From assembly GCF_009796805.1 (NCBI RefSeq), contig NZ_CP047029.1, positions 496,001 to 560,000 on the forward strand: a stretch of 64,000 nucleotides of DNA, in the 5' to 3' direction. Within the stretch, counting starts at the first letter, position 1; each line of letters starts with the position of its first letter. The position numbers were made by a program, and so were the translations under genes. This document shows positions 25,200-41,617 of the stretch, piece by piece. The notes below the pieces were generated by a model. That model worked only from the letters and a program-made list of their open reading frames with translations. It ran no database searches and was not told where the DNA came from. The DNA is from Algibacter sp. L1A34 (lineage in GTDB: Bacteria; Bacteroidota; Bacteroidia; Flavobacteriales; Flavobacteriaceae).

Positions 25200-25535
25200 A
25201 TGCAAAAAACATATTACGACCCAGCCGATTTAAGAAAATTTGGAAAAATCACCGAATGGAGCAAAGATTTAGGCGAAAAATTCTTTGAATATTACGGAAA
25301 AGTTTTCGAGGAAGGCGCACTAACAGCACGCGAGAAATCGCTAATAGCACTTGCTGTAGCACACACAGAACAATGCCCATATTGTATAGACGCTTACACA
25401 AAAGATGGTTTGCAACGTGGCGTAACTAAAGAAGAAATGATGGAAGCCATACATGTAGGAGCTGCAATAAAAAGTGGAGCAACCCTAGCACATGGTGTTC
25501 AAATGATGAATAAAGTAAACAAATTAGACGGGTAA
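25200..25535 (+). CDS. AhpD-like/carboxymuconolactone decarboxylase family protein, arsenosugar-cluster peroxidase-like type
   Basis: A 111-residue single-domain protein of the CMD/AhpD fold. The redox pair is Cys59 and Cys62 in HTEQCPYCIDAYTKDG; the His that follows the CxxC in AhpD (Cys+4) is a Tyr here. The family form with the PADLRKFG opening and EQCPYCIDAY is usually annotated as the arsenosugar biosynthesis-associated (formerly SeCys-associated) peroxidase-like protein, and it is typically next to the ArsS radical SAM gene, as here. Its actual reaction is unknown. The next gene starts 168 bases on, with a structured element on the opposite strand in between. Confidence 0.85.
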   Translation: MQKTYYDPADLRKFGKITEWSKDLGEKFFEYYGKVFEEGALTAREKSLIALAVAHTEQCPYCIDAYTKDGLQRGVTKEEMMEAIHVGAAIKSGATLAHGVQMMNKVNKLDG

Positions 25536-25540
25536 TATTT

Positions 25541-25637
25541 TTGGCGCTACCACAAGGGTCGGGCTTTTCGCAGTCGCTTTTTTGTGTTGCATAGGTGCAA
25601 CAACACAAAAAGAGCTCCAACAATGCTCCAATCCCTA
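25541..25637 (-). ncRNA. structured repeat-like element (copy 2), possibly a Flavo-1-type RNA
   Basis: On the - strand it reads GGGATTGGAGCATTG, then a long hairpin around TTGCACCTATGCAA, then CGAAAAGCCCGACCC and ends GGTAGCGCC. The 3' half matches the copy at 4471-4573 nearly base for base, and both begin with GGATT. The hairpin arms (about 25579-25592 and 25597-25610) are almost perfect. It fills the gap between the AhpD-like gene and arsS, on the opposite strand to both. Confidence 0.45.
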
Positions 25638-25702
25638 GCGCAGTTATCTGCCAAGTGCTGTTTTCAAAATAGAAACAGTATCTTAATTTTAAAAAACTAT
25701 TA

Positions 25703-26758
25703 ATGGCAACAAAGTCCCTACAAAAACGCGAAAGCGACTTAGCAAATAGCAACAGGCAACTCGACATTTTATCGAACGGCATTTTCAAAAATGGAGAATT
25801 ACCAACTTTTAAAAATAAAATTTCCGAAACTGGCCATTTTCCGCTTAAAGCGAAAAAACTCGAAATCCTGCAAATAAATGTAGGCTACATGTGTAACCAA
25901 GTTTGCGACCATTGCCATGTTGATGCTGGTCCAGACCGTAAAGAAATCATGACGCGCGATACCATGCGCGAATGTTTAGAGGTTATAAAAAACACAGGTG
26001 CTCACACTTTAGATTTAACAGGTGGCGCACCAGAAATGAACCCTGATTTCCGTTGGTTTGTAGAAGAAGCCGCAAAAGCAGGTATCAAAGATTTTATTGT
26101 TCGTTCTAATCTAACCATAATTAGAGCCAACAAAAAATACTACGATTTACCAGAATTCTTTAAAAAACACAATGTGCATGTTGTGAGCTCTATGCCACAC
26201 TGGACACGTGGAAAAACCGATAAACAACGTGGAGACGGTGTTTTTGATAAATCTATTAGAGCGCTACAAGATTTAAATGCTATTGGCTACGGTATACCGG
26301 GTAGCGATTTACGTTTAGATTTGGTTTACAATCCCTCGGGAGCCTTTTTACCTGGCGATCAAGTTGCTATGGAAAAAGATTTCAAAAAAGCCTTGAAGGA
26401 CGATTTCGATATCCAATTTCATAATTTATTTGCTATTACAAATTTACCTATCGCAAGGTTTTTAGATTTCCTTATTGCTTCAGAAAATTACGAAGACTAT
26501 ATGTACTCTTTAGTAGAAGCTTATAATCCAACTGCAGTTGAAAACGTAATGTGCACAAATACGCTATCCATAAGTTGGGATGGTTATTTGTTTGATTGCG
26601 ATTTTAATCAAATGCTTAATTTACCAGTAAATAGCAAATCAAAACACATTAGCGAATACAATGAAGAATTACTGGAAGGTAGAAACATTGTGATTTCTCA
26701 ACATTGTTACGGTTGTACCGCTGGTGCAGGTAGTAGCTGTCAAGGTGTAGTTGCTTAA
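25703..26758 (+). CDS. arsS: arsenosugar biosynthesis-type radical SAM protein ArsS
   Basis: A 351-residue radical SAM protein. The [4Fe-4S] cluster motif is Cys64-x3-Cys68-x2-Cys71 (CNQVCDHC), followed by HVDAGPDRKEIM and LTGGAPEMNPDF, both characteristic of this family. The C-terminal domain (DUF3641 type) ends in a Cys-rich HCYGCTAGAGSSCQG with Cys335, Cys338 and Cys346. Related cyanobacterial ArsS joins the 5'-deoxyadenosyl group of SAM to dimethylarsinous acid, giving 5'-deoxy-5'-dimethylarsinoyl-adenosine. All cluster residues are present, so activity is expected; that the substrate is arsenic is inferred from the family. No UGA/selenocysteine codon is involved here. The next gene starts 3 bases after the stop. 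Confidence 0.88.
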   Translation: MATKSLQKRESDLANSNRQLDILSNGIFKNGELPTFKNKISETGHFPLKAKKLEILQINVGYMCNQVCDHCHVDAGPDRKEIMTRDTMRECLEVIKNTGAHTLDLTGGAPEMNPDFRWFVEEAAKAGIKDFIVRSNLTIIRANKKYYDLPEFFKKHNVHVVSSMPHWTRGKTDKQRGDGVFDKSIRALQDLNAIGYGIPGSDLRLDLVYNPSGAFLPGDQVAMEKDFKKALKDDFDIQFHNLFAITNLPIARFLDFLIASENYEDYMYSLVEAYNPTAVENVMCTNTLSISWDGYLFDCDFNQMLNLPVNSKSKHISEYNEELLEGRNIVISQHCYGCTAGAGSSCQGVVA

Positions 26759-26761
26759 AAG

Positions 26762-27451
26762 ATGAAGAAAAATAAAATAGCCATATTAATTTTTGCTAAC
26801 TCTGCCGAGAAGGAGATGGTTTCAAAACCATTACCCTCGCCCAGCAGTTTGTTTGAAGCGTTAAACCTTCAAACTATAAACATTGCAAAAAAAACAGGCT
26901 TACCTTATTTTCATCTTAGCGAAAACCAACAAATTGGAGTAAATTTTGGAGAACGTTTTACAAACGCCATTCAATCTGTTTACAATAAAGGTTATGATAC
27001 CGTTATTACCATCGGGAATGACACACCACATTTAACAGCAAAACATATTTTAAAAACTGCAGAGAAACTAAAACATCACCATGTTGTTCTAGGCCCTTCG
27101 ACAGATGGTGGTTTTTATTTAATGGGTTTAAAAAAGGATCTATTTAATCCTGATGTTTTCTTAAAATTACCTTGGCAAACTACCAATTTAAATAGGAATA
27201 TTTCTAAAGTATTAGCTTCTGAAACTACCCAAATTCATTATTTAGAAGTATTAACCGATATTGATAATGCTTCGGATATAGAACGTGTTTTAAATAGTTT
27301 CAAAAGCATCTCGGCTGCTATTAAATCTATTCTACTTCAATCTATTTCAATTTCAACTAAAATAATAGCTTACCATATTACAGCCTTTCACAACTTCGTA
27401 TTAAAAAGGCAACACAATAAGGGCTCTCCTGCTCTACTTCATTTACAATAG
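26762..27451 (+). CDS. TIGR04282/DUF2064 family transferase, divergent copy
   Basis: A 229-residue protein of the rSAM/selenodomain (arsenosugar)-associated transferase 1 family, a GT-A-like fold. VITIGNDTPHLT near residue 80 and LGPSTDGGFYLMGL near 120 match the family. The N-terminal GKVKTRLA loop found in the second copy (34866-35495) is missing; the equivalent region reads ANSAEKEMVSKPL. A C-terminal tail of about 50 residues is extra. It may act on a different substrate or have lost nucleotide binding. It sits 3 bases after arsS, so it is almost certainly co-transcribed. Confidence 0.8.
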   Translation: MKKNKIAILIFANSAEKEMVSKPLPSPSSLFEALNLQTINIAKKTGLPYFHLSENQQIGVNFGERFTNAIQSVYNKGYDTVITIGNDTPHLTAKHILKTAEKLKHHHVVLGPSTDGGFYLMGLKKDLFNPDVFLKLPWQTTNLNRNISKVLASETTQIHYLEVLTDIDNASDIERVLNSFKSISAAIKSILLQSISISTKIIAYHITAFHNFVLKRQHNKGSPALLHLQ

Positions 27452-27463
27452 TTTTACGACATC

Positions 27464-27485
27464 AATCTTCACGAAGATTTTACTA
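27464..27485 (+). terminator. small hairpin before the SusC gene, weak terminator or attenuator
   Basis: AATCTTC (27464-27470) and GAAGATT (27473-27479) form a perfect seven-pair stem with a two-base loop, followed by a broken T run. It lies in the 50-base gap between the transferase and SusC genes and may reduce read-through. Confidence 0.4.
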
Positions 27486-27501
27486 ACTTTTATTTAACTA
27501 A

Positions 27502-30500
27502 ATGAAGCATATTTTACTATGCATAACGTTTGCCTTATTTGGCATTACGCATGCACAAACAACTATAACTGGTCGTGTTACAGATACGGAGAGCAACGCC
27601 CCTTTACCTTTTGTTAATATCTCAAGTAATAAAACAGGAACTATTAGCGATGAAAACGGAAACTATACTATTGAAGTAATATCTCAATCTAGCGTAATAC
27701 AATTTTCTTTTCTCGGCTATAAAACGGAAACTATTAGCGTTGGAAACAAAACGGTTGTAAATGTGAGTTTATCGGAAGATGCCGCAGCACTAAATGAAAT
27801 TGTTATTACAGCCTTAGGTATAAAACGAGATTCTAAAGCTTTAGGATATTCTGTACAAGCTATTAAATCGGAAAGCCTAACCAAAGTAAAAACGGTGAAT
27901 TTCCTGGATAACCTCCAAGGAAAACTAGCCGGAGTTACCGTAACGCAAGGCGCAACAGGAGTTGGTTCTACGTCTAAAATCACCATTCGTGGTGAAGCCT
28001 CTTTCTCTAATAACAATCCGCTTTTTATTGTCGATGGCACACCTATTAACAACGAAACCGTTTTTAATTTTACAAATCAAGCTGCGGCAGGTTTTCAAGA
28101 AATAGATTTTGGTAATGGAGCCATGGAAGTCAATCCAGACGATATAGAATCGGTTACCGTTTTAAAAGGTGCAAATGCTGCTGCTCTTTACGGCACGCGC
28201 GCTGCGAACGGCGTTATTGTTATAAAAACTAAAGACGGCAACAAGCAAAAAGGGTTTCGTGTTAGTTTAAACACATCCATAACTGTGGATTCTGCTTTTA
28301 AACTTCCTGAATTTCAAAACGAGTACGGCCAAGGACAATCTGGCCAGTTTGAATATGTTGATGGTTTAGGAGGAGGAACAAGTGATAATATCACCTATTC
28401 TTGGGGCCCGAGATTAGATACAGGTATTTTAGTACCACAGTTTGATAGCCCTGTACAACTTACCAACGGTAATTTTGTTCGTGGTGGAGACACATCATTA
28501 TATAACGATTTACCAATTACGGCAACACCCTTTACATCAAACCCAAACAACTTAAAAGATTTTTACAAAACAGGCTTAACAACCTCCAATAATATTGCTA
28601 TTTCTAATGGTTTTGAGACTGGAAGTTACAGATTATCTTTTACCGATTTAAGAAGTGAATCTATTATTCCGGGTGTAAATTTGGATAGACAAACGGTAGC
28701 AACAAAACTTAACTTTAACCCTTCGGAAAGAACCGAAATAAACACCTCTATAAGCTACGTTAATTCCAGCAGTGACAATAGGCCTGCAAATGGCTACGGA
28801 AGTGAAAACGCAAATTATTCATTAGTTGCATGGGGACCGCGTTCTTTAGATATTAATAATTTAAAAAACTACTGGCAACCTGGTTTAGAAGGTGTACAAC
28901 AATATTCTTTTAACTATACATTTTTTGATAATCCTTATTTTATTTTATCAGAAAACAGAAACGGGTTTGAACGTGATAGAATATTTGGAAACATTGCTAT
29001 AAAACAAGAACTAGCTAATCATTTAAGGGTAACGCTTAGAACAGGAATGGACTACAGTAGTGAAACGCGTCAATTTATTAGAAATTTTAGCAGCAATCGT
29101 TTTCAAAATGGCGCTTATGCCGAGCACGATGTAAAATACAGAGAAATAAATACCGATTTTTTAATTAACTATAATAACACGTTCGGGAATTTATCTTTTG
29201 ATATTTCTGTTGGTGGCAACCGTTTAAATCAAACAGCTTCTACAAAACAATCGCAAACGGTAAACTTAGCACAACCTGGTATTTTCAGCTTAAACAATGC
29301 TGCATCGCCTATTGAAGTTTTTCAATTTGAAAGTGAAAAACGTATAAACTCCCTTTATAGCGTTGCTAAATTAGGGTATAAAAACTATTTATTTTTAGAT
29401 ATTACTGGTAGAAATGATTGGTCGAGTGCCTTAGCTACTCCTTTTTCTGTAGACGGAACATCTTTTTTCTACCCATCGGTTTCTACAAGTTTTGTTTTAT
29501 CCAACGTTGCGAAACTACCTCGTTTTGTTTCATTTGCAAAATTACGCACTAGTCTGGCTCAAGTAGGTAACGATACGAGTCCTTACCAAACCTCTGGAAC
29601 ATTTGTTTCGCAAACTACATTTAATGGAGATGCTACTTTTAGTAATCAAGATTTTATACCAAATGCCAACTTAAAACCAGAACAAACTACAAGTTTTGAA
29701 ATTGGTGCAGACCTTCGTTTTTTTAAAGATCGCCTAAATTTCGATTTCACTTATTACAATGCAGACACTAAAGACCAAATTATTTCTTTACCAATTGCTA
29801 CCTCTTCTGGATACAACCAACAAGTTGTAAATGGAGGAACAGTAAACACACAAGGTGTTGAAATTGTACTTGGCATAACACCTATTAAAACTAAAAACTT
29901 TAATTGGGATTCTACATTTAACTTTGCAACCAACCGTTCTACAGTTAAAGATTTACCGCAAAATGATGGCAGATTAACCTTAGCCTTTAGTAGAATTTAT
30001 GACAGTGCAGACCAAACCGTTTGGTTTCAGGTTGAAGAAGGCGGACGCCTTGGTGATTTCTACGGTACTGGATATTCTAAAAATGGCAACGGTGAATTTA
30101 TTATAGATGATAACGGACGTTTTATTGCAGATAATACTTTAAAAAAACTAGGTAATTCTAATCCCGATTTCACTTTAGGATGGAATAATAATTTCACCTT
30201 AAAAAACTGGAATTTAAACTTCCTTTTCGATTGGAGACAAGGTGGCGAAATTGTATCAAGAACGCGCGCTTTAGGTAATGTTGGCGGACAATTAGTAGAA
30301 ACAGCCTATAGACCAGATGCCGGTATTATTGCCCAAGGTGTTAACCAAAACACAGGCTTAGCGAATACAACAGCCGTTACTGCAGAAAGCTATTACAGAC
30401 AATTTTACGACAGAAATCACGAAGAAAACAATGTATATGATGCTTCCTTTTTAAAGCTTCGTCAGTTTGCTTTAGGTTATAACTTTAAACTTAACGAAGG

Positions 30501-30693
30501 CTTTCTAGGCCTTACTAACCAAGCAGAATTAACGATTTCTTTTACAGGAAATAATCTATTCGCTATTACTGAAAACCCACATTTCGATCCAGAACAAATA
30601 GCCGTTCAAGGAAATGGTTTTGTTAGTGGTGTTGAAGACTTAAGCTATGCTACAACACGAAGTTTTGGTTTTAAAGTAGGCATTGATTTTTAA
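27502..30693 (+). CDS. SusC/RagA family TonB-linked outer membrane receptor
   Basis: A 1,063-residue TonB-dependent transporter. It has a signal peptide (MKHILLCITFALFGITHAQ), a carboxypeptidase-regulatory-like beta domain (TITGRVTDTESNAPLPFVNI, about 20-105), a plug (KRDSKALGYSVQAI; KLAGVTV; NNPLFIVDGTPI) and a long 22-strand barrel ending FGFKVGIDF. It imports a ligand captured by the SusD-like lipoprotein encoded 39 bases downstream, driven by TonB. Its ligand is unknown. Being inside the ArsS-type cluster suggests a link to that pathway, but it could also be a separate nutrient-uptake unit embedded in it. Confidence 0.95.
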   Translation: MKHILLCITFALFGITHAQTTITGRVTDTESNAPLPFVNISSNKTGTISDENGNYTIEVISQSSVIQFSFLGYKTETISVGNKTVVNVSLSEDAAALNEIVITALGIKRDSKALGYSVQAIKSESLTKVKTVNFLDNLQGKLAGVTVTQGATGVGSTSKITIRGEASFSNNNPLFIVDGTPINNETVFNFTNQAAAGFQEIDFGNGAMEVNPDDIESVTVLKGANAAALYGTRAANGVIVIKTKDGNKQKGFRVSLNTSITVDSAFKLPEFQNEYGQGQSGQFEYVDGLGGGTSDNITYSWGPRLDTGILVPQFDSPVQLTNGNFVRGGDTSLYNDLPITATPFTSNPNNLKDFYKTGLTTSNNIAISNGFETGSYRLSFTDLRSESIIPGVNLDRQTVATKLNFNPSERTEINTSISYVNSSSDNRPANGYGSENANYSLVAWGPRSLDINNLKNYWQPGLEGVQQYSFNYTFFDNPYFILSENRNGFERDRIFGNIAIKQELANHLRVTLRTGMDYSSETRQFIRNFSSNRFQNGAYAEHDVKYREINTDFLINYNNTFGNLSFDISVGGNRLNQTASTKQSQTVNLAQPGIFSLNNAASPIEVFQFESEKRINSLYSVAKLGYKNYLFLDITGRNDWSSALATPFSVDGTSFFYPSVSTSFVLSNVAKLPRFVSFAKLRTSLAQVGNDTSPYQTSGTFVSQTTFNGDATFSNQDFIPNANLKPEQTTSFEIGADLRFFKDRLNFDFTYYNADTKDQIISLPIATSSGYNQQVVNGGTVNTQGVEIVLGITPIKTKNFNWDSTFNFATNRSTVKDLPQNDGRLTLAFSRIYDSADQTVWFQVEEGGRLGDFYGTGYSKNGNGEFIIDDNGRFIADNTLKKLGNSNPDFTLGWNNNFTLKNWNLNFLFDWRQGGEIVSRTRALGNVGGQLVETAYRPDAGIIAQGVNQNTGLANTTAVTAESYYRQFYDRNHEENNVYDASFLKLRQFALGYNFKLNEGFLGLTNQAELTISFTGNNLFAITENPHFDPEQIAVQGNGFVSGVEDLSYATTRSFGFKVGIDF

Positions 30694-30732
30694 AACATTT
30701 TTCCGTTTTAACGGAAATGAAAATATTAATTT

Positions 30733-32175
30733 ATGAAAAACATTATATATATATTATCCTTTTTGATTCTATTGATTACAGTAAGCTGCACCAATGATTT
30801 TCAAAATATAAACACAAACCCAAACGCTCCGGTTTCTGTACAACCTAGTTTATTACTACGCCAAGTTATTTATAATTTCGGAGAAGAAATGAGTTATGAA
30901 GGTTTTGTTGCTGGTGATTTATTATCGCAACATCGTACAGCTTTAGATTTTAATTTATTTGATAGACATGCACTTAAATCACCACAATTAGGCGGAAACC
31001 CTTGGCCTGTATTCTACACAAATTTACGAGATAACGAAATTATTTTAAATCAGTCGAGAACTTCCGAAGCCTTTAAAGTTTACGAAGGACCTGCATTAAT
31101 TTTAAAAGCTTATATGGCTGCTGGACTAACCGACTTATTTGGAGATGTTCCTTATTTTGAAGCTTTTAATGGCTCTACAATTACAGTTACCCCAAGTTAT
31201 GATAATCAAGAAGATATTTATCTAATGGAAGGAGGTATTCTCGACAACCTTAACAAAGGTATCATCGCAATTCAGAACTACAAAGATGCTATTCCTCTAG
31301 AAGGCGACATTTTATTTAATGGAGATTTAGAAGCTTGGATACGTTTTGCTAATTCATTAAAAATAAAGCACCTTATCAGAATTTCTAACAAAGAAGATGT
31401 GGCTGCAGAATTACAATCACTTTTTGATGATGACAACTATATAAAAGATAATTTACAGAATGCTGTTTTCGACTTTACGAATTCTGACCCAAATAGTTTT
31501 AGACTAGCACAATTAAGGGTTGGTGATTTTAACAACTTTGTACTTTCTGAAACTATGGAAGATATTTTAACCGACTTAAACGATACGCGAATAAATACGC
31601 TATTCAAGCCTTTTTCAAACTCAACAACGAATGAATTTAACGGTTTACTTAACGGTATCGACGCTACCTCAACAGCTATATCTTTAGCTAATTACTCATT
31701 AGCAGGAACTATTTTTAGAGAAGACACCTCTACTCTGGATGCTAATTTTATAACTGCTTGGGAAGTGCATTTCGCTTTCGCGGAAGCTGCTTCAAAAAAC
31801 TTAATCACAGCTGATGCACAGCAACTCTATGAAACCGGTGTTACATTGGCTTTTGAGTATTGGCACACAGAATTACCTCTAGACTACTTAACAAATAATG
31901 CTGCTTTTAACGCTGTTGGCAAAACGCCTTTAGAGCAAATTATAACCCAAAAATGGATTGCAAATACTATAAACGGTTATGAAGGTTGGATTGAATATAA
32001 CCGAACAGGTTTCCCCGAATTACAAACTATTTCGGCAAGTTTAAATAATGATTTAATACCTCTTAGAATGCCCTACCCTGCCGAAGAAGAAACGCTTAAC
32101 GCAGAAAACTATTTGGAAGCTGCTCTAAAAACAGATAATAACAGCATTAATATACCAGTATGGTGGAATGAATAA
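30733..32175 (+). CDS. SusD/RagB family nutrient-binding outer membrane lipoprotein
   Basis: A 480-residue lipoprotein with a signal peptide and lipobox at about Cys19 (LLITVSC). The opening NDFQNINTNPNAPVSVQPSLLLRQVI is the SusD-like_2 pattern. It should bind the ligand at the cell surface as the lid of the SusC receptor. Its last eight bases overlap the start of the symporter gene (ATGAATAA), so the two are translationally coupled. Confidence 0.92.
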   Translation: MKNIIYILSFLILLITVSCTNDFQNINTNPNAPVSVQPSLLLRQVIYNFGEEMSYEGFVAGDLLSQHRTALDFNLFDRHALKSPQLGGNPWPVFYTNLRDNEIILNQSRTSEAFKVYEGPALILKAYMAAGLTDLFGDVPYFEAFNGSTITVTPSYDNQEDIYLMEGGILDNLNKGIIAIQNYKDAIPLEGDILFNGDLEAWIRFANSLKIKHLIRISNKEDVAAELQSLFDDDNYIKDNLQNAVFDFTNSDPNSFRLAQLRVGDFNNFVLSETMEDILTDLNDTRINTLFKPFSNSTTNEFNGLLNGIDATSTAISLANYSLAGTIFREDTSTLDANFITAWEVHFAFAEAASKNLITADAQQLYETGVTLAFEYWHTELPLDYLTNNAAFNAVGKTPLEQIITQKWIANTINGYEGWIEYNRTGFPELQTISASLNNDLIPLRMPYPAEEETLNAENYLEAALKTDNNSINIPVWWNE

Positions 32176-33511
32176 CCTAGACACAACAACATTGCAATGG
32201 CTATTAATTATAACATCTAGTTTGATTTTATTTTTTATATCGCCGTTCGCTAAAACGAAAGATCAGTTTTTTAAAGCCACTAAAAGGTTAAAAAAGCCGA
32301 ACACCTTAGTTTTAACGGGTAGCTTAATAATTTCTTGGATTTTTGCCAAAAGCATTACCAATGCGGCGAACCTCGGTTTAAGTTTTGGTATTGTTGGCGG
32401 CGTGGCTTATGCTGGTTATTATTTATCATTTGCCGTTGCAGGCATATTGCTTTATCAGCTTAGAGTTAAAGGTGGTTTTGAAAGTATTCATGAATTTTTA
32501 ACAACAAAGTTTGGTAAAGGTGCCATGGCCATTTTTTCAATTTTAATTGCTTTTAGGTTGTTTAATGAAGTTTGGAGTAACACCATGGTTATTGGTAGTT
32601 ATTTTGGAGGACCGGGAAGCACGCCATATTATTGGTCTATAATTCTGTTCACGTTACTAACTTTAGCTTACGCTCTAAAAGGAGGATTAAGTAGTTCTAT
32701 TTTTACAGATGTTATTCAAATGGGGTTATTTTCAGTTTTACTAATCATTATTTTATACAATATTTTTTCAATTGAAAACTTTTCAACTCAAGATATTGCA
32801 TCTTCTGGCACGTGGAGTTTCGAATTAGGTTTAAACTTATTTTTCGCAGCTATTATTCAATCTTTTAGCTACCCATTTCATGACCCCGTTTTAACAGATA
32901 GAGCGTTTATAAGTTCTCCAAAAGTAACACGCAGAAGTTTTTTAATTGCGAGTATTTTAGGTGCTTTCTGTATAATTTCATTTAGTGTAATTGGTGTTTA
33001 TGCACAAACCCACAATATGCAAGGGCAAGCTGCTGTTGAAGTAGGTAAAGCCTTTGGTGTATTCATTTTACTTATTATAAATTTTATCATGATTACGTCG
33101 GCTGCATCTACCCTAGATTCAACATTTTCATCCTTTTCAAAACTATTATCAATAGATTTAAACCTAGGTAAGAATGTAACCTTTGGTCGTGTATCCATGG
33201 TACTTATTGCTATTTTAGGCACAATTCCTATTTTTTTAAATGCTGAAATATTATCGGCTACAACCATATCGGGAACTATGGTTATAGGTTTAACACCTGT
33301 GTTTTTATTCTGGAATATAAAAGTTCCTAAAATAAGTTATTACCTCAGCGTGACATGCGGATTAATTTTCGGCATCATATTAGTATTAGAAATATTCCCC
33401 GAATCACTCATTTTTACACAAGGAAAATATGCCGATTTACTATGGATTAATTTCTGGGGCGTTTTAAGTTGTATCACATTATATATTATTCCAAAATGGA
33501 TAAAAAAATAG
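32168..33511 (+). CDS. sodium:solute symporter (SSS) family protein
   Basis: A 447-residue inner-membrane protein with about 12 to 13 helices. SLIISWIFAKSITNAANLGLSFG in TM2 and LAYALKGGLSSSIFTDVIQMG are typical of the solute:sodium symporter family. It probably carries the compound brought in by SusC/SusD from the periplasm to the cytoplasm with Na+. It overlaps SusD by 8 bases and the phosphoesterase start by 16 bases. The substrate is unknown; SSS proteins carry sugars, amino acids, vitamins and similar small molecules. Confidence 0.9.
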   Translation: MNNLDTTTLQWLLIITSSLILFFISPFAKTKDQFFKATKRLKKPNTLVLTGSLIISWIFAKSITNAANLGLSFGIVGGVAYAGYYLSFAVAGILLYQLRVKGGFESIHEFLTTKFGKGAMAIFSILIAFRLFNEVWSNTMVIGSYFGGPGSTPYYWSIILFTLLTLAYALKGGLSSSIFTDVIQMGLFSVLLIIILYNIFSIENFSTQDIASSGTWSFELGLNLFFAAIIQSFSYPFHDPVLTDRAFISSPKVTRRSFLIASILGAFCIISFSVIGVYAQTHNMQGQAAVEVGKAFGVFILLIINFIMITSAASTLDSTFSSFSKLLSIDLNLGKNVTFGRVSMVLIAILGTIPIFLNAEILSATTISGTMVIGLTPVFLFWNIKVPKISYYLSVTCGLIFGIILVLEIFPESLIFTQGKYADLLWINFWGVLSCITLYIIPKWIKK

Positions 33512-34326
33512 AAAATTTAGGTCAAATTTCTGGCAAAGTATTACTTTTTGGTGGCGTCTATAGCAACCTTCAAGCTTTAGAAGCAATAAAACAAATTGCT
33601 GAAAAAGAAAATATTCTTCCAGAAAATTGTATTTGTACTGGTGATATTGTGGGCTATTGTGCACAACCTGAAGAAACCGTGCAATTGTTCAAAATATGGA
33701 ATGCAAAAAGCATTGCGGGTAATGTTGAAATACAACTTAGCGAAGGTGCTACAGATTGCGGTTGCGAATTTAAAAAAGGTTCGCGCTGCGATGGGTTTTC
33801 TCAGCAATGGTATCCTTATGCACAAAGTAAACTTTCAAAAGATTCTTTAAATTTTATAGACAGTTTACCAGATCATATTACCTTTAATTACGCTGGCAAA
33901 GAAGTGATAGTTGTTCATGGCTCTTATGAAAATACTTCAGAATTTATTTTTAAATCTTCGCCTTGGAAAACGAAAGCGCCAAACTTTCTAGAAAACAAAT
34001 ACGATGTTGTTATTGGCGGTCATTGTGGTTTACCATTTCAAGATGAACATGAAGATAAATTATGGATAAACCCAGGTGTAATTGGGATGCCAGCAAACGA
34101 CGGAAACCCTAGTGTGTGGTATGCTATTTTAGACGATTCGCAAAACACATTCAGCTTTAAACATCACAGTTTATCCTATAATTATAGATTAACAAATAAA
34201 CTCATGCAAAACGGGCTTTTACCAAAAGAATACGCAAGAACTATTATTACTGGTATCTGGGATAACACCGAGATTTTACCGGCTATAGAAAGTGGTTTGC
34301 AAGGCTTTGGCGTTAATATAAATTAA
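33496..34326 (+). CDS. metallophosphoesterase family protein
   Basis: A 276-residue protein from the ATG at 33496 (MDKKIENLGQ). A longer frame from 33469 adds an unlikely lead inside the symporter gene. Metal-site motifs are partly unusual: LLFGGVYSNLQALEAI replaces the standard GDxHG, while CTGDIVGYC, IAGNVE, VVHGSYEN and VIGGHCGLP match the other blocks, so the protein belongs to the YfcE/ApaH-like superfamily but has lost or changed the first metal ligand. A Cys-rich insert (DCGCEFKKGSRCDG) near residue 85 is distinctive. It may remove phosphate from a pathway intermediate. Confidence 0.8.
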   Translation: MDKKIENLGQISGKVLLFGGVYSNLQALEAIKQIAEKENILPENCICTGDIVGYCAQPEETVQLFKIWNAKSIAGNVEIQLSEGATDCGCEFKKGSRCDGFSQQWYPYAQSKLSKDSLNFIDSLPDHITFNYAGKEVIVVHGSYENTSEFIFKSSPWKTKAPNFLENKYDVVIGGHCGLPFQDEHEDKLWINPGVIGMPANDGNPSVWYAILDDSQNTFSFKHHSLSYNYRLTNKLMQNGLLPKEYARTIITGIWDNTEILPAIESGLQGFGVNIN

Positions 34327-34378
34327 CACCAAATCACCATCAATTGTAATTTTATTAAATTTGAGAGACTAAATCGAT

Positions 34379-34873
34379 ATGAAAAACAGCTTATTTTTAT
34401 TAATACTTCTTCAAGGGGTTTCTTTGTTTGCTCAAAAATCTATTGACAAATTATTAAAACAATATAACGATAATAGTGTGCCTTATATAAGCGTACAAGA
34501 ACTAGCTATGCCAAACACTAACGCCACTATTCTCGATTCCAGAGAACTCAAGGAATACGAAACTAGCCATTTAAAAAATGCCATTCATGTTGGTTACGAT
34601 CATTTTAAAATAGATAGTGTTTATAAAAAAGTACCGAATAAAGAATCTAAAATAGTAGTGTATTGCTCCGTTGGTATTCGTTCAGAATCAATAGCCGATA
34701 GTCTTAAAAAAGCAGGATACACACATGTAGAGAATTTATATGGTGGAATTTTTGAATGGAAAAGCAATGATTTCCCTGTATATAATAGAGAAGAGAAAGA
34801 AACAGATAGTATTCATACATTTAATAAAGTATGGAGTAAATGGCTAAAAAAAGGAATAAAAGTATATGAATAA
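34379..34873 (+). CDS. exported rhodanese-like domain protein
   Basis: A 164-residue protein with a signal peptide (MKNSLFLLILLQGVSLFAQ) and one rhodanese domain. The active-site cysteine is Cys96 in VVYCSVGIRSE, and DSRELKEYETSHLKNAIHVGYD is the N-terminal block. Rhodanese-like proteins move sulfur, or in related cases bind arsenate; the loop CSVGIRS is the Cys-x5 form seen in both rhodaneses and Cdc25/arsenate-reductase-like proteins. It would act in the periplasm. It overlaps the next transferase gene by 8 bases. A TAAATTTG at 34356-34363 could be a -7 box. Confidence 0.88.
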   Translation: MKNSLFLLILLQGVSLFAQKSIDKLLKQYNDNSVPYISVQELAMPNTNATILDSRELKEYETSHLKNAIHVGYDHFKIDSVYKKVPNKESKIVVYCSVGIRSESIADSLKKAGYTHVENLYGGIFEWKSNDFPVYNREEKETDSIHTFNKVWSKWLKKGIKVYE

Positions 34874-35495
34874 AGAACTCGTTATTGTTTTTGTGAAAAA
34901 CATAAAACTAGGAAAAGTAAAAACTAGACTAGCCAAAACGATTGGAAATCAAGGGGCATTTGATGTTTATACCGAATTGGTAGAAGTTACAGAAAAAGCT
35001 ACTAAAAACCTTAAAGCAGACAAACGTATTTATTTTTCTGAAACCATAGTGGAATCTATGTGGAAAAACGATTATAAAACAGTCCAAAATGGCCCTGATC
35101 TAGGAGAACGTATGAGTAATGCTTTCCAACAAGGTTTTAAAGATGGTTATGAGCGTATTGTGTTAATCGGTTCCGATTTACCAGATATCACAGCCACACA
35201 AATAAACTCAGGATTAGAAGCTCTTAACAAAAGTGATGTGGTATTTGGACCTGCTGAAGATGGCGGCTATTACTTAGTTGGTTTTTCTAAATTTTATAAT
35301 TTTGTCTTCCAAAACAAACCTTGGAGTCAAGACAATTTATTAAAAGAAACGTTAAGCCAATTAAAAGAAAATCGAGTAACTTTTAGTACTTTAGAGACCT
35401 TAAATGATATTGATACTTTTGAAGATTTAATAGCTTCAAAATTTTATCAATCTAACTTAGAGTTACAAAAAAAACTAAAACAATTACATGATTAA
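34866..35495 (+). CDS. TIGR04282 family (arsenosugar-associated) transferase, canonical copy
   Basis: A 209-residue protein with the full family pattern: VFVKNIKLGKVKTRLA near the N-terminus (nucleotide-binding loop), VLIGSDLPDIT, VFGPAEDGGYYLVGF and TLETLNDIDTFEDL. It is a GT-A-fold nucleotidyl- or glycosyltransferase, named rSAM/selenodomain-associated transferase 1 in older annotation. It overlaps the rhodanese gene by 8 bases upstream and the purine nucleoside phosphorylase gene by 8 bases downstream. It is the better candidate for the active enzyme of the two TIGR04282 copies. Confidence 0.88.
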   Translation: MNKELVIVFVKNIKLGKVKTRLAKTIGNQGAFDVYTELVEVTEKATKNLKADKRIYFSETIVESMWKNDYKTVQNGPDLGERMSNAFQQGFKDGYERIVLIGSDLPDITATQINSGLEALNKSDVVFGPAEDGGYYLVGFSKFYNFVFQNKPWSQDNLLKETLSQLKENRVTFSTLETLNDIDTFEDLIASKFYQSNLELQKKLKQLHD

Positions 35496-36300
35496 ATTTA
35501 TAGAAGAAACAGTAGATTACTTAAAAGAAAAAGGATTTGAAAGCCCAGAAATAGGTATCATTTTAGGTACAGGGTTAGGCAAACTTGTAGATGAAATAAA
35601 TATTATAAAAGAAGTAAGCTACAACCACATCCCTAACTTCCCGACAGCCACTGTAGAATTTCATAAAGGAAAACTTATCTATGGCGAACTAGAAGGCAAA
35701 AAGGTAATTATAATGCAAGGACGTTTTCATATATATGAAGGCTATAGCTTGCAAGATGTTACGTATCCTGTTCGTATTATGGAAAAACTAGGAATAAAAA
35801 CGTTATTGGTTTCTAATGCTTCTGGAGCTATAAATCTAGACTATAAAAAAGGTGAGCTTATGCTTATCGACGATCATATAAATTTACAAGGCAGTTCGCC
35901 TTTAGCTTTTAAAGGTGTTGAACAATTAGGAGAACGTTTCGCAGATATGAGCCTGCCTTATGATACCGAAATTAACGCTAAATTCAAAAGTATTGCTAAA
36001 TCAAACAACATAAAACTTCACGAAGGTGTTTACGCCAGTGTAGTTGGCCCACAACTAGAAACCCGTGCAGAATACCGCATGCTAAAAATTATTGGTGCAG
36101 ATGCCGTTGGTATGAGTACTGTTCCAGAAATTATTGTTGCTAACCATTTAGGATTAAAAGTAGCAGCCATTTCTGTATTAACAGATGAGTGCGACCCAGA
36201 AAACTTAAAACCAGTAGATATTAGCGAAATAATTGCTATCGCTTCTAAAGCAGAACCAAACATGATTACGCTTTTTAAAGAATTGATAAAAACAATCTAA
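35488..36300 (+). CDS. purine nucleoside phosphorylase
   Basis: A 270-residue trimeric-type PNP. The phosphate-binding region GIILGTGLGKLVDEI, QGRFHIYEGYSLQDVTYPVR, VSNASGAINLDY and VVGPQLETRAEYRMLKIIGADAVGMST are all present; the purine-site glutamate is in the ETRAEYRM block. It splits purine nucleosides with phosphate into the base and ribose-1-phosphate. Its place in this operon suggests it may remove adenine from an ArsS-made adenosyl product or recycle adenosine; that is inference. It overlaps the upstream transferase gene, and the next gene starts 2 bases after its stop. Confidence 0.94.
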   Translation: MIKFIEETVDYLKEKGFESPEIGIILGTGLGKLVDEINIIKEVSYNHIPNFPTATVEFHKGKLIYGELEGKKVIIMQGRFHIYEGYSLQDVTYPVRIMEKLGIKTLLVSNASGAINLDYKKGELMLIDDHINLQGSSPLAFKGVEQLGERFADMSLPYDTEINAKFKSIAKSNNIKLHEGVYASVVGPQLETRAEYRMLKIIGADAVGMSTVPEIIVANHLGLKVAAISVLTDECDPENLKPVDISEIIAIASKAEPNMITLFKELIKTI

Positions 36301-36301
36301 T

Positions 36302-36505
36302 TTGAAAATATTACTATCCTTTATTATACTAGCATTATCAATATACAAAGTGTTAACTAGTTTTATGTTAAACGAAAAATACGGTATACTTTTCGATATG
36401 AAAATAAATATTTGGATTTACAGAGCTATATGGGCTATAGCAGGTTTATCATTTGCATACAACCTTTTTAAAATATACAAAGACAAAAAGCGATTTGGTA
36501 TATAA
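36302..36505 (+). CDS. small two-helix membrane protein of unknown function
   Basis: A 67-residue protein that I do not recognise. It starts with TTG at 36302, 2 bases after the PNP stop, and has two hydrophobic segments (about 3-22 and 40-58) with a basic tail (KIYKDKKRFGI). The tight junction and length suggest a real co-translated gene. A role as a membrane partner of the sterol-desaturase-like enzyme encoded next is possible but unproved. Confidence 0.6.
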   Translation: MKILLSFIILALSIYKVLTSFMLNEKYGILFDMKINIWIYRAIWAIAGLSFAYNLFKIYKDKKRFGI

Positions 36506-36576
36506 TTGTGCTTAAGATTCCGCTTTACACTAGTTTGATTTACCTTAATAATCAGGATTAGATTATTTAGTTTTAT

Positions 36577-37458
36577 ATGAATAAATACCTAGACATAATA
36601 AAAAATGCTTATTCCGGTTATTGGAATTACCTTAAAAACGAGATACTTTTTCCAAACCAATGGGATAACTATTTTTATGGATTAATAGCCATTTCTCTAA
36701 TAGTTTGGGGATTGGAGATTGTATTTCCATGGCGTAAAAATCAATCTATTTTTCGAAAAGATTTTTGGTTAGATACCTTTTACATGTTTTTCAATTTCTT
36801 TTTATTAAACCTTATTATATTAATTGCACTTTCTAATACAGCCGCAGAATTTTTTAATGATCTTTTAAAAACAATTGGGTTATCTCTAAATGATTTTCAA
36901 CTCTTTAATGCTAACGATTTACCAAAATGGCTCGGTTTAATCATTTTCTTTTTGGTATCCGATTTTGTTCAATGGAACACGCATAGATTACTGCACCGTT
37001 TTGAGTTCTTTTGGAATTTCCATAAAGTACATCACTCGGTAAAAGAAATGGGGTTCGCAGCTCACTTACGCTATCACTGGATGGAGCCCATAGTTTATAA
37101 ATCACTTCTATATATTCCGCTAGCATTAATTGCAAATTACAGTGCGCAAGATGTTGCTATTGTTTATTTTTTCAGTATTGCTATAGGTCATTTAAATCAC
37201 GCCAACTTAGGTTGGGATTATGGCCTTTTAAAATATGTATTTAATAATCCTAAAATGCATATTTGGCACCATGTAAAAAGTCTACCAAAAGATGTTAGGT
37301 TTGGCGTAAACTACGGACTAACATTAAGTATTTGGGACTACATTTTTAAAACCGATTACGTGCCTCACGATGGTAGAGACATTGAATTAGGGTTTGATGA
37401 TGATGAAAAATTTCCAAAAAATTTTATTAGTCAAGAACTTTACCCTTTGAAAAAATGA
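36577..37458 (+). CDS. sterol desaturase/fatty acid hydroxylase family protein
   Basis: A 293-residue membrane protein of the FA-hydroxylase superfamily. The eight-histidine di-iron site is visible: H136-x3-H140 (NTHRLLHR), H149-x2-HH (FHKVHH), H205-x2-H208 (GHLNH) and H228-x2-HH (HIWHH). About four helices surround it. Members hydroxylate or desaturate lipids, sterols or carotenoids with O2. In this cluster it might modify a lipid carrying the pathway product, but no substrate can be read from sequence. The last 4 bases overlap the DUF547 gene (ATGA). Confidence 0.9.
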   Translation: MNKYLDIIKNAYSGYWNYLKNEILFPNQWDNYFYGLIAISLIVWGLEIVFPWRKNQSIFRKDFWLDTFYMFFNFFLLNLIILIALSNTAAEFFNDLLKTIGLSLNDFQLFNANDLPKWLGLIIFFLVSDFVQWNTHRLLHRFEFFWNFHKVHHSVKEMGFAAHLRYHWMEPIVYKSLLYIPLALIANYSAQDVAIVYFFSIAIGHLNHANLGWDYGLLKYVFNNPKMHIWHHVKSLPKDVRFGVNYGLTLSIWDYIFKTDYVPHDGRDIELGFDDDEKFPKNFISQELYPLKK

Positions 37459-38351
37459 AAAATTTAATTTACTTCAGTTTTAGTTTTTTTTTGCTCGCTT
37501 GTAGTGCCAATAAAACAGTTACACAATTACCTCAACAAAACATGCCTTCTACCCTACCAGCAGTAACCGTTGAACCAGAAAAAATAGAAAAAACCGAGTC
37601 AATAAAAGAAAGTAGCGAAACAGAAATCAATACTATTAATATTACCAAAGAACCAGTAAGCGAAACTAATAGCACTGAAGAAACTGTTAATAAAGATATT
37701 GCAGCACCGCATAAATTATGGAATGAGTTATTACAAAAACACGTTTCGGATGCTGGACATGTAAATTACAAAACCTTTAAAACGGAGAGATCAAAACTAC
37801 TAAGCTACATACAGGATTTAAACCTCATCTATTCTGATGATAGTTTTAAATCGCTTTCTAAAGAAGAAGCTCTCGCCTTTTGGATTAATGCCTACAACGC
37901 CATGACGGTAGATTTAATTCTTCGAAACTACCCGATAAAAAGCATAAAAGACATCGATAAACCTTGGGATCAACGTTATTGGAAATTAGGTGAAAAATGG
38001 TTTAATTTAAATGATATTGAACATGAAATTTTACGCAAAATGGACGAACCAAGAATTCATTTCGCCATTGTTTGTGCTTCGGTTTCTTGCCCTAAATTAC
38101 AAAACACAGCTTTTACAGCTTCTAATATTGAAACACAACTAACCTATGCTACTAAGGAATTTTTAAGTGATCCGGAACGTAATGAAATTTCAGAAAACAG
38201 TATCAAGATTTCAAAAATATTTCAATGGTTCTCTAAAGATTTTAAGAAAAACGGCGATTTAATTGACTTTTTAAATCAATATTCAGATGTTGAAATTTCA
38301 GCGAAAGCGAAAAAAAGTTTTAAGGATTACAACTGGAATTTGAATGAATAA
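37455..38351 (+). CDS. DUF547 domain lipoprotein
   Basis: A 298-residue protein with a lipobox at Cys16 (FFLLAC), a low-complexity Glu/Thr/Ser-rich linker (about 20-85) and a DUF547 domain with WNELLQKHVSDAGHVNYKTF, LAFWINAYNAMTVDLILRNYP and FAIVCASVSCPKL. The Cys pair in the last motif is conserved. The function of DUF547 is unknown, but it often accompanies TIGR04282/04283 transferases and ArsS. It overlaps the TIGR04283 gene by 8 bases. A second DUF547 gene lies at 49744-50460. Confidence 0.9.
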   Translation: MKNLIYFSFSFFLLACSANKTVTQLPQQNMPSTLPAVTVEPEKIEKTESIKESSETEINTINITKEPVSETNSTEETVNKDIAAPHKLWNELLQKHVSDAGHVNYKTFKTERSKLLSYIQDLNLIYSDDSFKSLSKEEALAFWINAYNAMTVDLILRNYPIKSIKDIDKPWDQRYWKLGEKWFNLNDIEHEILRKMDEPRIHFAIVCASVSCPKLQNTAFTASNIETQLTYATKEFLSDPERNEISENSIKISKIFQWFSKDFKKNGDLIDFLNQYSDVEISAKAKKSFKDYNWNLNE

Positions 38352-39045
38352 AATATCCATCATAATTCCTGTTTTAAATGAAGCTGAAACTATTGAAAAT
38401 TTACTTTTCTACCTGATAGATTGTTCTTCATTAAATAATATCTCGGAAATTATTGTTGTTGATGGTGGCAGTACAGATGGTACGATACCGATAATTAAAA
38501 ACTTAGGCCTAAATATTAAAGTTTTAAACTCTGAAAAAGGTCGTGCCAAACAAATGAATCTTGGAGCAAGTGAGGCTAACGGTAATATTCTATACTTTCT
38601 ACATGCCGATTCTTTACCGCCAAATAGATACGATCAACTGATATTATCGGCTATAGAAAACGGCAACGCTGCAGGTTGTTTTAAAATGAAATTCGACTCT
38701 AACCATTGGTGGCTAAAACTAGCGAGTTGGTTTACGCAGTTTAATTGGCAAGTGTGTCGTGGCGGTGACCAAAGCTTATTTATTACTCACTCCCTTTTTA
38801 AAGATATTGGTGGCTTTGATGAAAACTTCACCATTTACGAAGACAACGATTTTATTGCCAAATTATACCAACGTAAGCAATTTGTGGTAATACAAGAATG
38901 GCTAACAACCTCTGCTAGAAAATATAATAGTCATGGTATTTGGAAACTTCAATTTCATTTTTGGGCTATTCATTTAAAAAAACGATTTGGGGCTACACCA
39001 GAAAAACTACACCAATACTACCTAAAACACATCGCGACTAATTAA
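38344..39045 (+). CDS. TIGR04283 family (arsenosugar-associated) glycosyltransferase
   Basis: A 233-residue GT2 enzyme. SIIIPVLNEAETIENLL, VVDGGSTDGT, SEKGRAKQMNLGA and LHADSLPP form the GT-A nucleotide-sugar site, and CRGGDQSLFITHSLFKDIGGF is the acceptor-side block. It is named rSAM/selenodomain-associated transferase 2 or arsenosugar biosynthesis glycosyltransferase. It is the last gene of the packed operon and is followed by a hairpin. Its sugar donor is not known. Confidence 0.9.
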   Translation: MNKISIIIPVLNEAETIENLLFYLIDCSSLNNISEIIVVDGGSTDGTIPIIKNLGLNIKVLNSEKGRAKQMNLGASEANGNILYFLHADSLPPNRYDQLILSAIENGNAAGCFKMKFDSNHWWLKLASWFTQFNWQVCRGGDQSLFITHSLFKDIGGFDENFTIYEDNDFIAKLYQRKQFVVIQEWLTTSARKYNSHGIWKLQFHFWAIHLKKRFGATPEKLHQYYLKHIATN

Positions 39046-40859: not shown

Positions 40860-41591
40860 CTAATCTTTATTACGCCCTTTTTCATTTGGATACAAGATGT
40901 AAACAGGATCACTTTGTAAAAACGTTTTAGTTTCAATATCCATACCAGAAATCCTACCTTTAAATGCAGCACCTGTATCTACATTCCAGATATTAACGGC
41001 ATTCATAGGTATATCACATTTAAAATTAGTTGTTGGTGTGTGCCCAATATAAATTTCGTGATAATGTTTTAATCTATTTGGATAGAAATAAGAATCAATC
41101 TTTAAATTATTATCTATCGCCAAAGCCATCTCCCAAAGTGTTCTATCAAAATACAAGGTTGGCTTATGTACTTCTTTTTCAACGCCGTGCATAGATGTAA
41201 ACCCTGCATGAAGAAACAATCGGTTTTGGTTATCTAAATAGTAAAACTTTAAGTTTTCAAAAAAAGCAATCTGTTCCTCTTTTTCTTCTTTTGTAAAACC
41301 ATTATAACTCGCCATAGTTTCTTTTCCGCCGTGCACATACCACGTTTGGTTTACTTCTCCCGTTTTTAGCCATTCTTCGCACCAAACATCATGGTTACCT
41401 CTTATAAACACACAGTTTATCTTTTTGGATAAATCCATTAAAAGCTGAACAACTTGAGCAGATTCACTCCAACCATCTACATAATCACCCATAAAAATAA
41501 GGTTATCATCATCTTTAACTTCTAACTTATTTAAAAGTTGAACTAATGCTTTTAACCCACCGTGAATATCTCCAATTACAATTGTTCGCAT
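40860..41591 (-). CDS. serine/threonine protein phosphatase-like metallophosphoesterase
   Basis: A 243-residue PPP-type enzyme from the ATG at 41591 (MRTIVIGDIHGG). An upstream ATG at 41612 would place the start inside the likely -7 box. The motifs GDIHGG, GDYVDGWSES, RGNHDVW, LHAGF and IGHTPTTN are all present in order and give a complete two-metal site. It may be a protein phosphatase or, like ApaH/PrpA relatives, act on nucleotides; substrate unknown. It is divergent from pyruvate carboxylase. Confidence 0.9.
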   Translation of the reverse strand: MRTIVIGDIHGGLKALVQLLNKLEVKDDDNLIFMGDYVDGWSESAQVVQLLMDLSKKINCVFIRGNHDVWCEEWLKTGEVNQTWYVHGGKETMASYNGFTKEEKEEQIAFFENLKFYYLDNQNRLFLHAGFTSMHGVEKEVHKPTLYFDRTLWEMALAIDNNLKIDSYFYPNRLKHYHEIYIGHTPTTNFKCDIPMNAVNIWNVDTGAAFKGRISGMDIETKTFLQSDPVYILYPNEKGRNKD

Positions 41592-41609
41592 GTGTACTTT
41601 CTTTTTCCG

Positions 41610-41617
41610 CAAAGCTA
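41610..41617 (-). promoter_or_regulatory. possible -7 element of the phosphatase gene
   Basis: TAGCTTTG on the - strand matches TAnnTTTG and would start a transcript about 12 bases before the ATG at 41591. The -33 region has TTT but no clear TTG. Confidence 0.4.

Follow-up and report, generated by a model that had tools for sequence, protein, structure and literature searches.

A separable uptake cassette in an arsenosugar-type gene cluster of Algibacter sp. L1A34 is associated with loss of ArsM

What might explain why Algibacter sp. L1A34 carries an arsenosugar-type gene cluster, built around the radical SAM enzyme ArsS, in a genome without the arsenite methyltransferase ArsM? The cluster lies at positions 25200-39045 of the 64,000-nucleotide stretch analysed here (the window), in a genome that is a single 4.64 Mb contig, and it consists of two modules, a core and a separable uptake cassette, cofC1-susC-susD-SSS-mpe, inserted into that core. 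We give close to an even chance to the reading that this is a cluster for an arsenosugar, perhaps an arsenosugar-lipid, in which the arsenite methylation step of ArsM has been replaced by import. What sequence evidence establishes is the families of the core, the cassette as a unit, a genome without ArsM, a statistical link between cassette and ArsM loss, and an ArsS under purifying selection. The core is a known type of cluster; what is new is an uptake cassette bound to arsS and linked to repeated loss of ArsM. A literature search by title and abstract, covering few subscription papers, found no paper on the cassette or on bacteroidete arsenosugar clusters.

Absence of ArsM and its association with the cassette

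In relatives, the gene directly after pnp encodes a 322-323-residue protein that is the arsenosugar ArsM NF038099 (573.8 bits; cut-off 400), and of 80 named loci, which were selected by ArsS and each cut at 10 kb per side, 49 contain this ArsM. The original prediction had reported no ArsM in the window and had proposed a genome-wide search for arsM. No ArsM was found in the 64-kb window, a search of the whole genome with the cluster ArsM gave no match at E 1e-40, and the general ArsM model NF008823 reached at best 40.2 bits on the whole genome (cut-off 263). The complete ArsM-ArsS pathway, with ArsM in the genome, is not present. Nor did a search of the 276-base gap between pnp and the hydroxylase gene find any arsM remnant.

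A set of 249 Flavobacteriaceae genomes, drawn evenly over 235 genera, was searched for the cluster ArsM, the canonical ArsM, ArsS, and the phosphoesterase-fold protein encoded by mpe, which served as the cassette marker; one of its 34 matches (G113, 31% identical and with two stops) was removed. ArsS was found in 184 genomes and the cluster ArsM in 146, all of them with ArsS, while the cassette was found in 33 of the 249, every one of which has arsS. Neither type of ArsM was found in 15 of the 33 cassette genomes, compared with 8 of the 151 cassette-less ones among the 184 that are ArsS-positive (Fisher p = 5e-8), and restriction to better genomes (at least 90% complete, at most 5% contaminated) gives 14/32 with the cassette against 4/131 without (p 1.5e-8). 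A canonical ArsM frame with one internal stop in G121 was scored as ArsM-positive in these counts and as ArsM-negative in the tree analyses. The cluster ArsM alone is absent from 16/33 genomes with the cassette and 22/151 without it (p 6e-5), and 14 of those 22 have the canonical ArsM instead. Among the named loci, the arsM slot is visible in 68 of the 80, and arsM is missing from 15 of 18 with the cassette versus 4 of 50 without; of the 12 loci dropped from this count, seven had too little sequence past pnp, and five of these seven bear the cassette. A near-total mutual exclusion of cassette and arsM inside the 10-kb flanks was considered and rejected: where the cassette is present the arsM slot is displaced to the locus edge, and therefore whole genomes and slot-visible loci were used. 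The Flavivirga aquatica locus (L016) shows no arsM, and G072 has ArsM.

The association was also assessed on ArsS gene trees holding 145 of the 184 genomes (33/33 with the cassette and 112/151 without). A model in which the rate of ArsM loss depends on the cassette was preferred to an independent model on the nucleotide tree (p 2.2e-8) and on the protein tree (p 9e-6), and likewise when only the better genomes were kept (p 2.5e-8 and 1.8e-6, respectively). The number of maximal ArsM-less clades varies between the two trees, and the cassette is carried by 14 of the 19 on the nucleotide tree and by 11 of the 16 on the protein tree, or by 13 of 15 and 10 of 12 with better genomes only; set against 33 cassette tips among 145, 14 of 19 gives a binomial p of 3.5e-6. 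Cassettes with and without ArsM occur among close relatives, and such pairs make the import reading testable.

It is very improbable, in our judgement, that another methyltransferase stands in for ArsM and that the association merely follows from common descent or a similar way of life. Some methyltransferases of the genome do score weakly against the ArsM profile (40 bits at best), but the same permissive search found matches in all 14 control genomes, one of them above the cut-off, and such weak scores therefore carry little weight; the many ArsM-less cassette clades on both ArsS trees also argue against a by-product.

Later steps retained and the proposed import route

ArsM-less cassette genomes keep the genes for steps after ArsM. 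Eleven of them have the cluster in one piece (G000, G153, G045, G074, G076, G091, G111, G121, G140, G173, G190); rhodanese, cofC2, pnp, DUF547 and GT2 genes are present in 11/11 of these and the hydroxylase gene in 7/11. In G050, G075, G152, G176 and G215, which are also ArsM-less cassette genomes, the cassette lies beside ahpD-arsS, and the other core genes are outside the 20 kb fetched. The ratio of nonsynonymous to synonymous substitution rates (dN/dS) of arsS between the window and G153, both ArsM-less, is 0.020, an approximate Nei-Gojobori value at dS 0.78, and it points to purifying selection on ArsS between these two ArsM-less genomes. Retention of the later steps together with a conserved arsS argues that the cargo would enter the pathway after ArsM and before ArsS, and we infer that it is a methylated arsenical.

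In the proposed route, SusC and SusD would carry a methylated arsenical through the outer membrane, either dimethylarsinate itself or a larger organoarsenical of algae from which dimethylarsinate is formed; the SSS-like carrier would move it through the inner membrane, and the phosphoesterase-fold protein, whose gene overlaps that of the carrier, may bind or process it. ArsS would then adenosylate the arsenic, as expected of its family, the purine nucleoside phosphorylase (PNP) would next free adenine, and completion of the product would fall to the transferases, the hydroxylase and the DUF547 protein. The original prediction had left three sources for the ArsS substrate. Import is now the best supported of them because the cassette is linked to ArsM loss, the cargo being putative; synthesis elsewhere is not supported, since neither of two models found an ArsM in the whole genome.

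The third option, a substrate other than arsenic, is less likely because a curated arsenosugar ArsM is present in 146 of the 184 ArsS-positive genomes, and inside 49 of the 80 named loci. In its fuller form, the pathway of cassette genomes would have moved off arsenic and ArsS would adenosylate another imported nucleophile, which we consider improbable. ArsM-less genomes do retain ArsS with no known source of methylated arsenic, and a homologue of mpe in Roseomonas haemaphysalidis is linked to a phosphonate-type importer in a stretch with no annotated ArsS; yet, besides the frequency of ArsM with ArsS, close relatives have the cassette both with and without the arsenosugar ArsM.

Several observations weigh against replacement of ArsM by import. 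The usual cargo of SusC/SusD is much larger than dimethylarsinate, and the cassette carrier is a weak SSS match. The cluster ArsM is kept in 17 of the 33 cassette genomes. Four genomes with a completeness of 90% or more (G046, G063, G098, G216) have ArsS without ArsM and without the main cassette, and they are unexplained apart from the importer of G063, described below. In G317, from another family, the cassette stands on a 17-kb contig without arsS, the rest of that genome not having been searched for arsS. Finally, the association comes from gene trees with many weak branches, and 39 cassette-less genomes were left out of them. The 17 ArsM-keeping genomes fit a supplement that sometimes turns into a replacement, and another cargo fits them equally.

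Such a cargo could be a different pathway ingredient, namely a sugar, glycerol-phosphate or a lipid head group for the arsenoriboside, ArsM being lost because dissolved dimethylarsinate enters otherwise in the same habitats. Retention of the cluster ArsM in about half of the cassette genomes and the preference of SusC/SusD for larger glycan-like molecules speak for this explanation. By itself it gives no reason why ArsM, rather than later genes, goes with the cassette, and we regard it as unlikely.

Arsenosugars and arsenolipids are major forms of arsenic in marine life, and the cluster bears on the genes past ArsS and on the bacterial share in marine organoarsenic. Import of methylated arsenic by the cassette, if correct, would open the uptake of organoarsenic to genetic study and would predict which bacteria are consumers and not producers of methylated arsenic. 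It would also imply that the product is kept for its own value once the detoxifying methylation has gone, which would make arsenosugars more than a waste form. A broader proposal, to which we give somewhat less than an even chance, is that marine Bacteroidota have an importer dedicated to methylated arsenic, with outer- and inner-membrane parts, and that lineages with this importer repeatedly lose ArsM and depend on algal or microbial methylated arsenic. This would be arsenic cross-feeding comparable to vitamin auxotrophy.

The locus in Algibacter sp. L1A34

All genes of the cluster are on the + strand and short overlaps are common; the original prediction had placed most genes on one strand, with several overlaps of 4 to 16 bases:

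25200..25535, +: ahpD, AhpD-like peroxidase family, arsenosugar-associated TIGR04169, 190.2 bits (cut-off 120)
25703..26758, +: arsS, radical SAM ArsS TIGR04167, 437.5 bits (cut-off 300); C-terminal DUF3641 domain; PF12345
26762..27451, +: cofC1, degenerate TIGR04282-like, 109.3 bits (under the cut-off of 134); opens the cassette
27502..30693, +: susC, TonB-linked outer-membrane transporter TIGR04056, 624.2 bits (cut-off 368); cassette
30733..32175, +: susD-like outer-membrane lipoprotein, PF12771, 283.3 bits (cut-off 27); cassette
32168..33511, +: SSS-like inner-membrane carrier, divergent, TIGR00813, 36.6 bits (below cut-off 184); cassette
33496..34326, +: mpe, protein of phosphoesterase fold that has a Cys-rich loop, overlapping the SSS gene; cassette
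34379..34873, +: rhodanese-like, NF045521, 209.5 bits (cut-off 145)
34866..35495, +: cofC2, arsenosugar-associated transferase TIGR04282, 193 bits (cut-off 134)
35488..36300, +: pnp, purine nucleoside phosphorylase, NF006054, 349.7 bits (cut-off 218)
36301..36576, no strand: arsM slot of relatives (NF038099); no arsM remnant in this genome
36577..37458, +: fatty-acid-hydroxylase / sterol-desaturase-like, PF04116, 88.9 bits
37455..38351, +: DUF547 protein, PF04784, 103.7 bits
38344..39045, +: gt2, arsenosugar-associated glycosyltransferase TIGR04283, 249.1 bits (cut-off 182)

The overlaps, from 4 to 16 bases, are those of susD/SSS (8), SSS/phosphoesterase (16, with the phosphoesterase ATG at 33496), rhodanese/cofC2 (8), cofC2/pnp (8), hydroxylase/DUF547 (4) and DUF547/GT2 (8). 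Promoter-like sites are no more frequent than background, and terminator-like sites number 12 versus 9.2 expected. The window ArsS shares 97% identity with the Algibacter pacificus enzyme.

Most identities proposed in the original prediction hold: ArsS, the AhpD-like protein, the TIGR04283 transferase, the PNP and the rhodanese each score above a curated cut-off, and the sterol-desaturase-like and DUF547 assignments agree with the Pfam matches. Others hold in part. Of the two TIGR04282 proteins it named, the second passes the cut-off and the first falls below it; the SusC and SusD families match, unlike the SSS protein; and the predicted phosphoesterase has the fold but not all of the metal ligands usual for it. 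The prediction also treated the genes as a single set, which is true of the core, conserved together across the named loci, and not of SusC/SusD/SSS, which belong to a separate cassette present in 33 of the 184 ArsS-positive genomes.

The core module

Because curated NCBIfam arsenosugar models (TIGR04169, TIGR04167, TIGR04282, TIGR04283) match, the core belongs to an already known kind of cluster. Its usual order in the 80 named loci is ahpD-arsS-rhodanese-cofC2-pnp-(arsM)-(hydroxylase)-DUF547-GT2, and 79 loci have ahpD, 78 have cofC2, 76 have pnp and 69 have rhodanese; cofC1 and cofC2 cross-match (raw counts of 78 and 79 loci, respectively), and a non-overlapping assignment was used. When one genome per genus was taken, ArsS scored above the cut-off in 73 of 100 Flavobacteriaceae genomes. 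The window ArsS has the intact C-x3-C-x2-C motif and Cys-rich C-terminal tail noted in the original prediction, and the cysteines are invariant among 120 aligned ArsS sequences, in which, as in the other protein alignments, some genomes entered twice, as a named locus and as a G stretch. ArsS is credited with adenosylating arsenic (Cheng et al. 2021, as cited in PMC12159101).

An arsenic-specific role for the cluster PNP, based on the Asp of its TDECD motif, was considered and dropped, the solved PNPs 4lna and 8swt also having Asp. The corresponding residue of human PNP is presumably Asn243, and Asp would suit adenine nucleosides; neither point was used as evidence. The genome holds two further PF01048 members, and the cluster PNP may be a housekeeping enzyme.

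In the arsM slot, a TTG-start open reading frame at 36302-36505 (+) encodes 67 residues rich in hydrophobic amino acids; over 203 bases its DNA is 81% identical to A. pacificus (L010), and it has no clear match in L146, L151 or L024.

The uptake cassette and its proteins

All five cassette genes are present in 22 of the 80 named loci and SSS-mpe only in two (L040, L049); susC and susD never occur without the rest of the cassette, a short susD remnant is found in L061, and cofC1 stands alone in L034 and L067. In Algibacter, Winogradskyella and Olleya loci the cassette is located between arsS and rhodanese, whereas in a Maribacter locus, L083, it is upstream of ahpD. Of the 33 cassette genomes, 29 have the full set, G002, G121 and G168 have SSS-mpe only, and G111 has no cofC1. 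The cassette and arsS share the same fetched stretch in 32/33, and G087 has an intact stand-alone cassette. The ArsS of G002 (L143 6009-6977) is divergent (57% identity) and is followed by SSS-mpe without SusC/SusD; ArsM is kept there.

The cofC1 product matches only positions 71-189 of the TIGR04282 profile and lacks the N-terminal G-x-x-K-x-R-L-A loop, which cofC2 retains and which is not conserved in cofC1 across the 54 sequences aligned. SusC/SusD pairs are importers, and the SusC and SusD family matches are adjacent in the window, as in an uptake pair. No Pfam family matched the SSS-like carrier at E 0.001. The mpe product has a phosphoesterase fold closest to phosphodiesterases such as SapH. 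Metallophosphoesterases bear the ligand motifs D-x-H, GD, GNH, H and GHxH; mpe keeps D50, N76, H141 and H176, but D-x-H has become FGGxYSN, GNH has become GNV and the last H is G178, so that the full metal set is not present. The Cys loop, residues 91-98, has a predicted local distance difference test (pLDDT) score below 50 in the model, and therefore no claim is made on its geometry.

Kinship with phosphodiesterases and a marine flavobacterial setting would suit a cassette that scavenges finished algal arsenosugars or arsenolipids for remodelling or degradation, with ArsS in another role or in salvage. ArsS would then be needless, yet arsS accompanies every cassette among the 33 genomes and is conserved at the dN/dS given above, and the missing metal ligands of mpe also count against it; we hold this explanation to be quite unlikely.

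Distribution and comparison with known systems

Among 296 phylum-wide genomes, the phosphoesterase had eight matches at E 1e-20, two of them weak (26-28% identity) and three from the same family, one being the window itself. The matches in other families are in G317, G418 and G429 (49-52% identity), and in G418 and G429 susC-susD-SSS-mpe lies next to arsS and ahpD. Their NF038099 scores are all under the cut-off of 400, at background (26 bits) in G418, 116 bits in G317 and 91 bits in G429.

Flavobacteriaceae clusters L024, L031 and L089 have the core order of the window but carry the NF038099 ArsM after pnp and no cofC1-susC-susD-SSS-mpe. A plasmid locus of Pseudanabaena galeata (L186) represents the cyanobacterial ArsM and ArsS pathway, with an ArsS 47% identical to that of the window. 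Unlike the window genome, it has an annotated arsenosugar-type ArsM two genes upstream, and no SusC/SusD is annotated in its 19 kb, whereas the window has the inserted uptake cassette. An Acinetobacter portensis plasmid (L184) shares arsS, DUF547, TIGR04283 and TIGR04282, with an mtnP nucleoside phosphorylase and a sterol-desaturase-like gene on the opposite strand; it differs in an in-cluster methyltransferase gene (by annotation), a phosphate transporter, and the lack of any annotated SusC/SusD or phosphoesterase. The methylthioadenosine phosphorylase of Acinetobacter in place of PNP would agree with phosphorolysis after ArsS, and is no proof of it. The Roseomonas haemaphysalidis plasmid operon (L187 1877-8837) ends, after its importer, in a phosphoesterase 37% identical to mpe with the same Cys loop, and has TIGR04282 and DUF547 genes upstream of it; in contrast to the window, the importer is a phosphonate-type ABC system, two other radical SAM genes are present, and no ArsS is annotated in 16.8 kb.

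A second cofC1-led cassette encodes a TonB receptor, a YnjB-type ABC importer (a binding protein scoring 384.8 bits against NF008633, permeases and an ATPase) and a 314-residue radical SAM protein, at these positions:

L176 9463-17730: second cofC1-led cassette
L191 3994-13176: second cofC1-led cassette
L192 4586-13181: second cofC1-led cassette

It occupies the arsS-cluster slot of G063, which is ArsM-less and without the main cassette, and stands alone in G199 and G242, where no ArsS was found at E 1e-50. The binding protein occurs in 6 of the 249 genomes, and G063 alone among these six has arsS. The second cassette was rejected as support for an arsenic cargo, with arsS in just one of the six genomes and the cassette stand-alone in both of the two inspected among the other five. 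Its radical SAM gene and those of the Roseomonas operon are not close relatives.

After the cluster, here and in many relatives, lies a calcineurin-like phosphatase gene (40860-41612, - strand; TIGR04075, NF001204 weak). A phosphate-transporter-like gene, by sequence, is found in a flavobacterial ArsS cluster at L015 16578-17687, and the inorganic phosphate transporter annotated in the Acinetobacter cluster is at L184 15298-16410.

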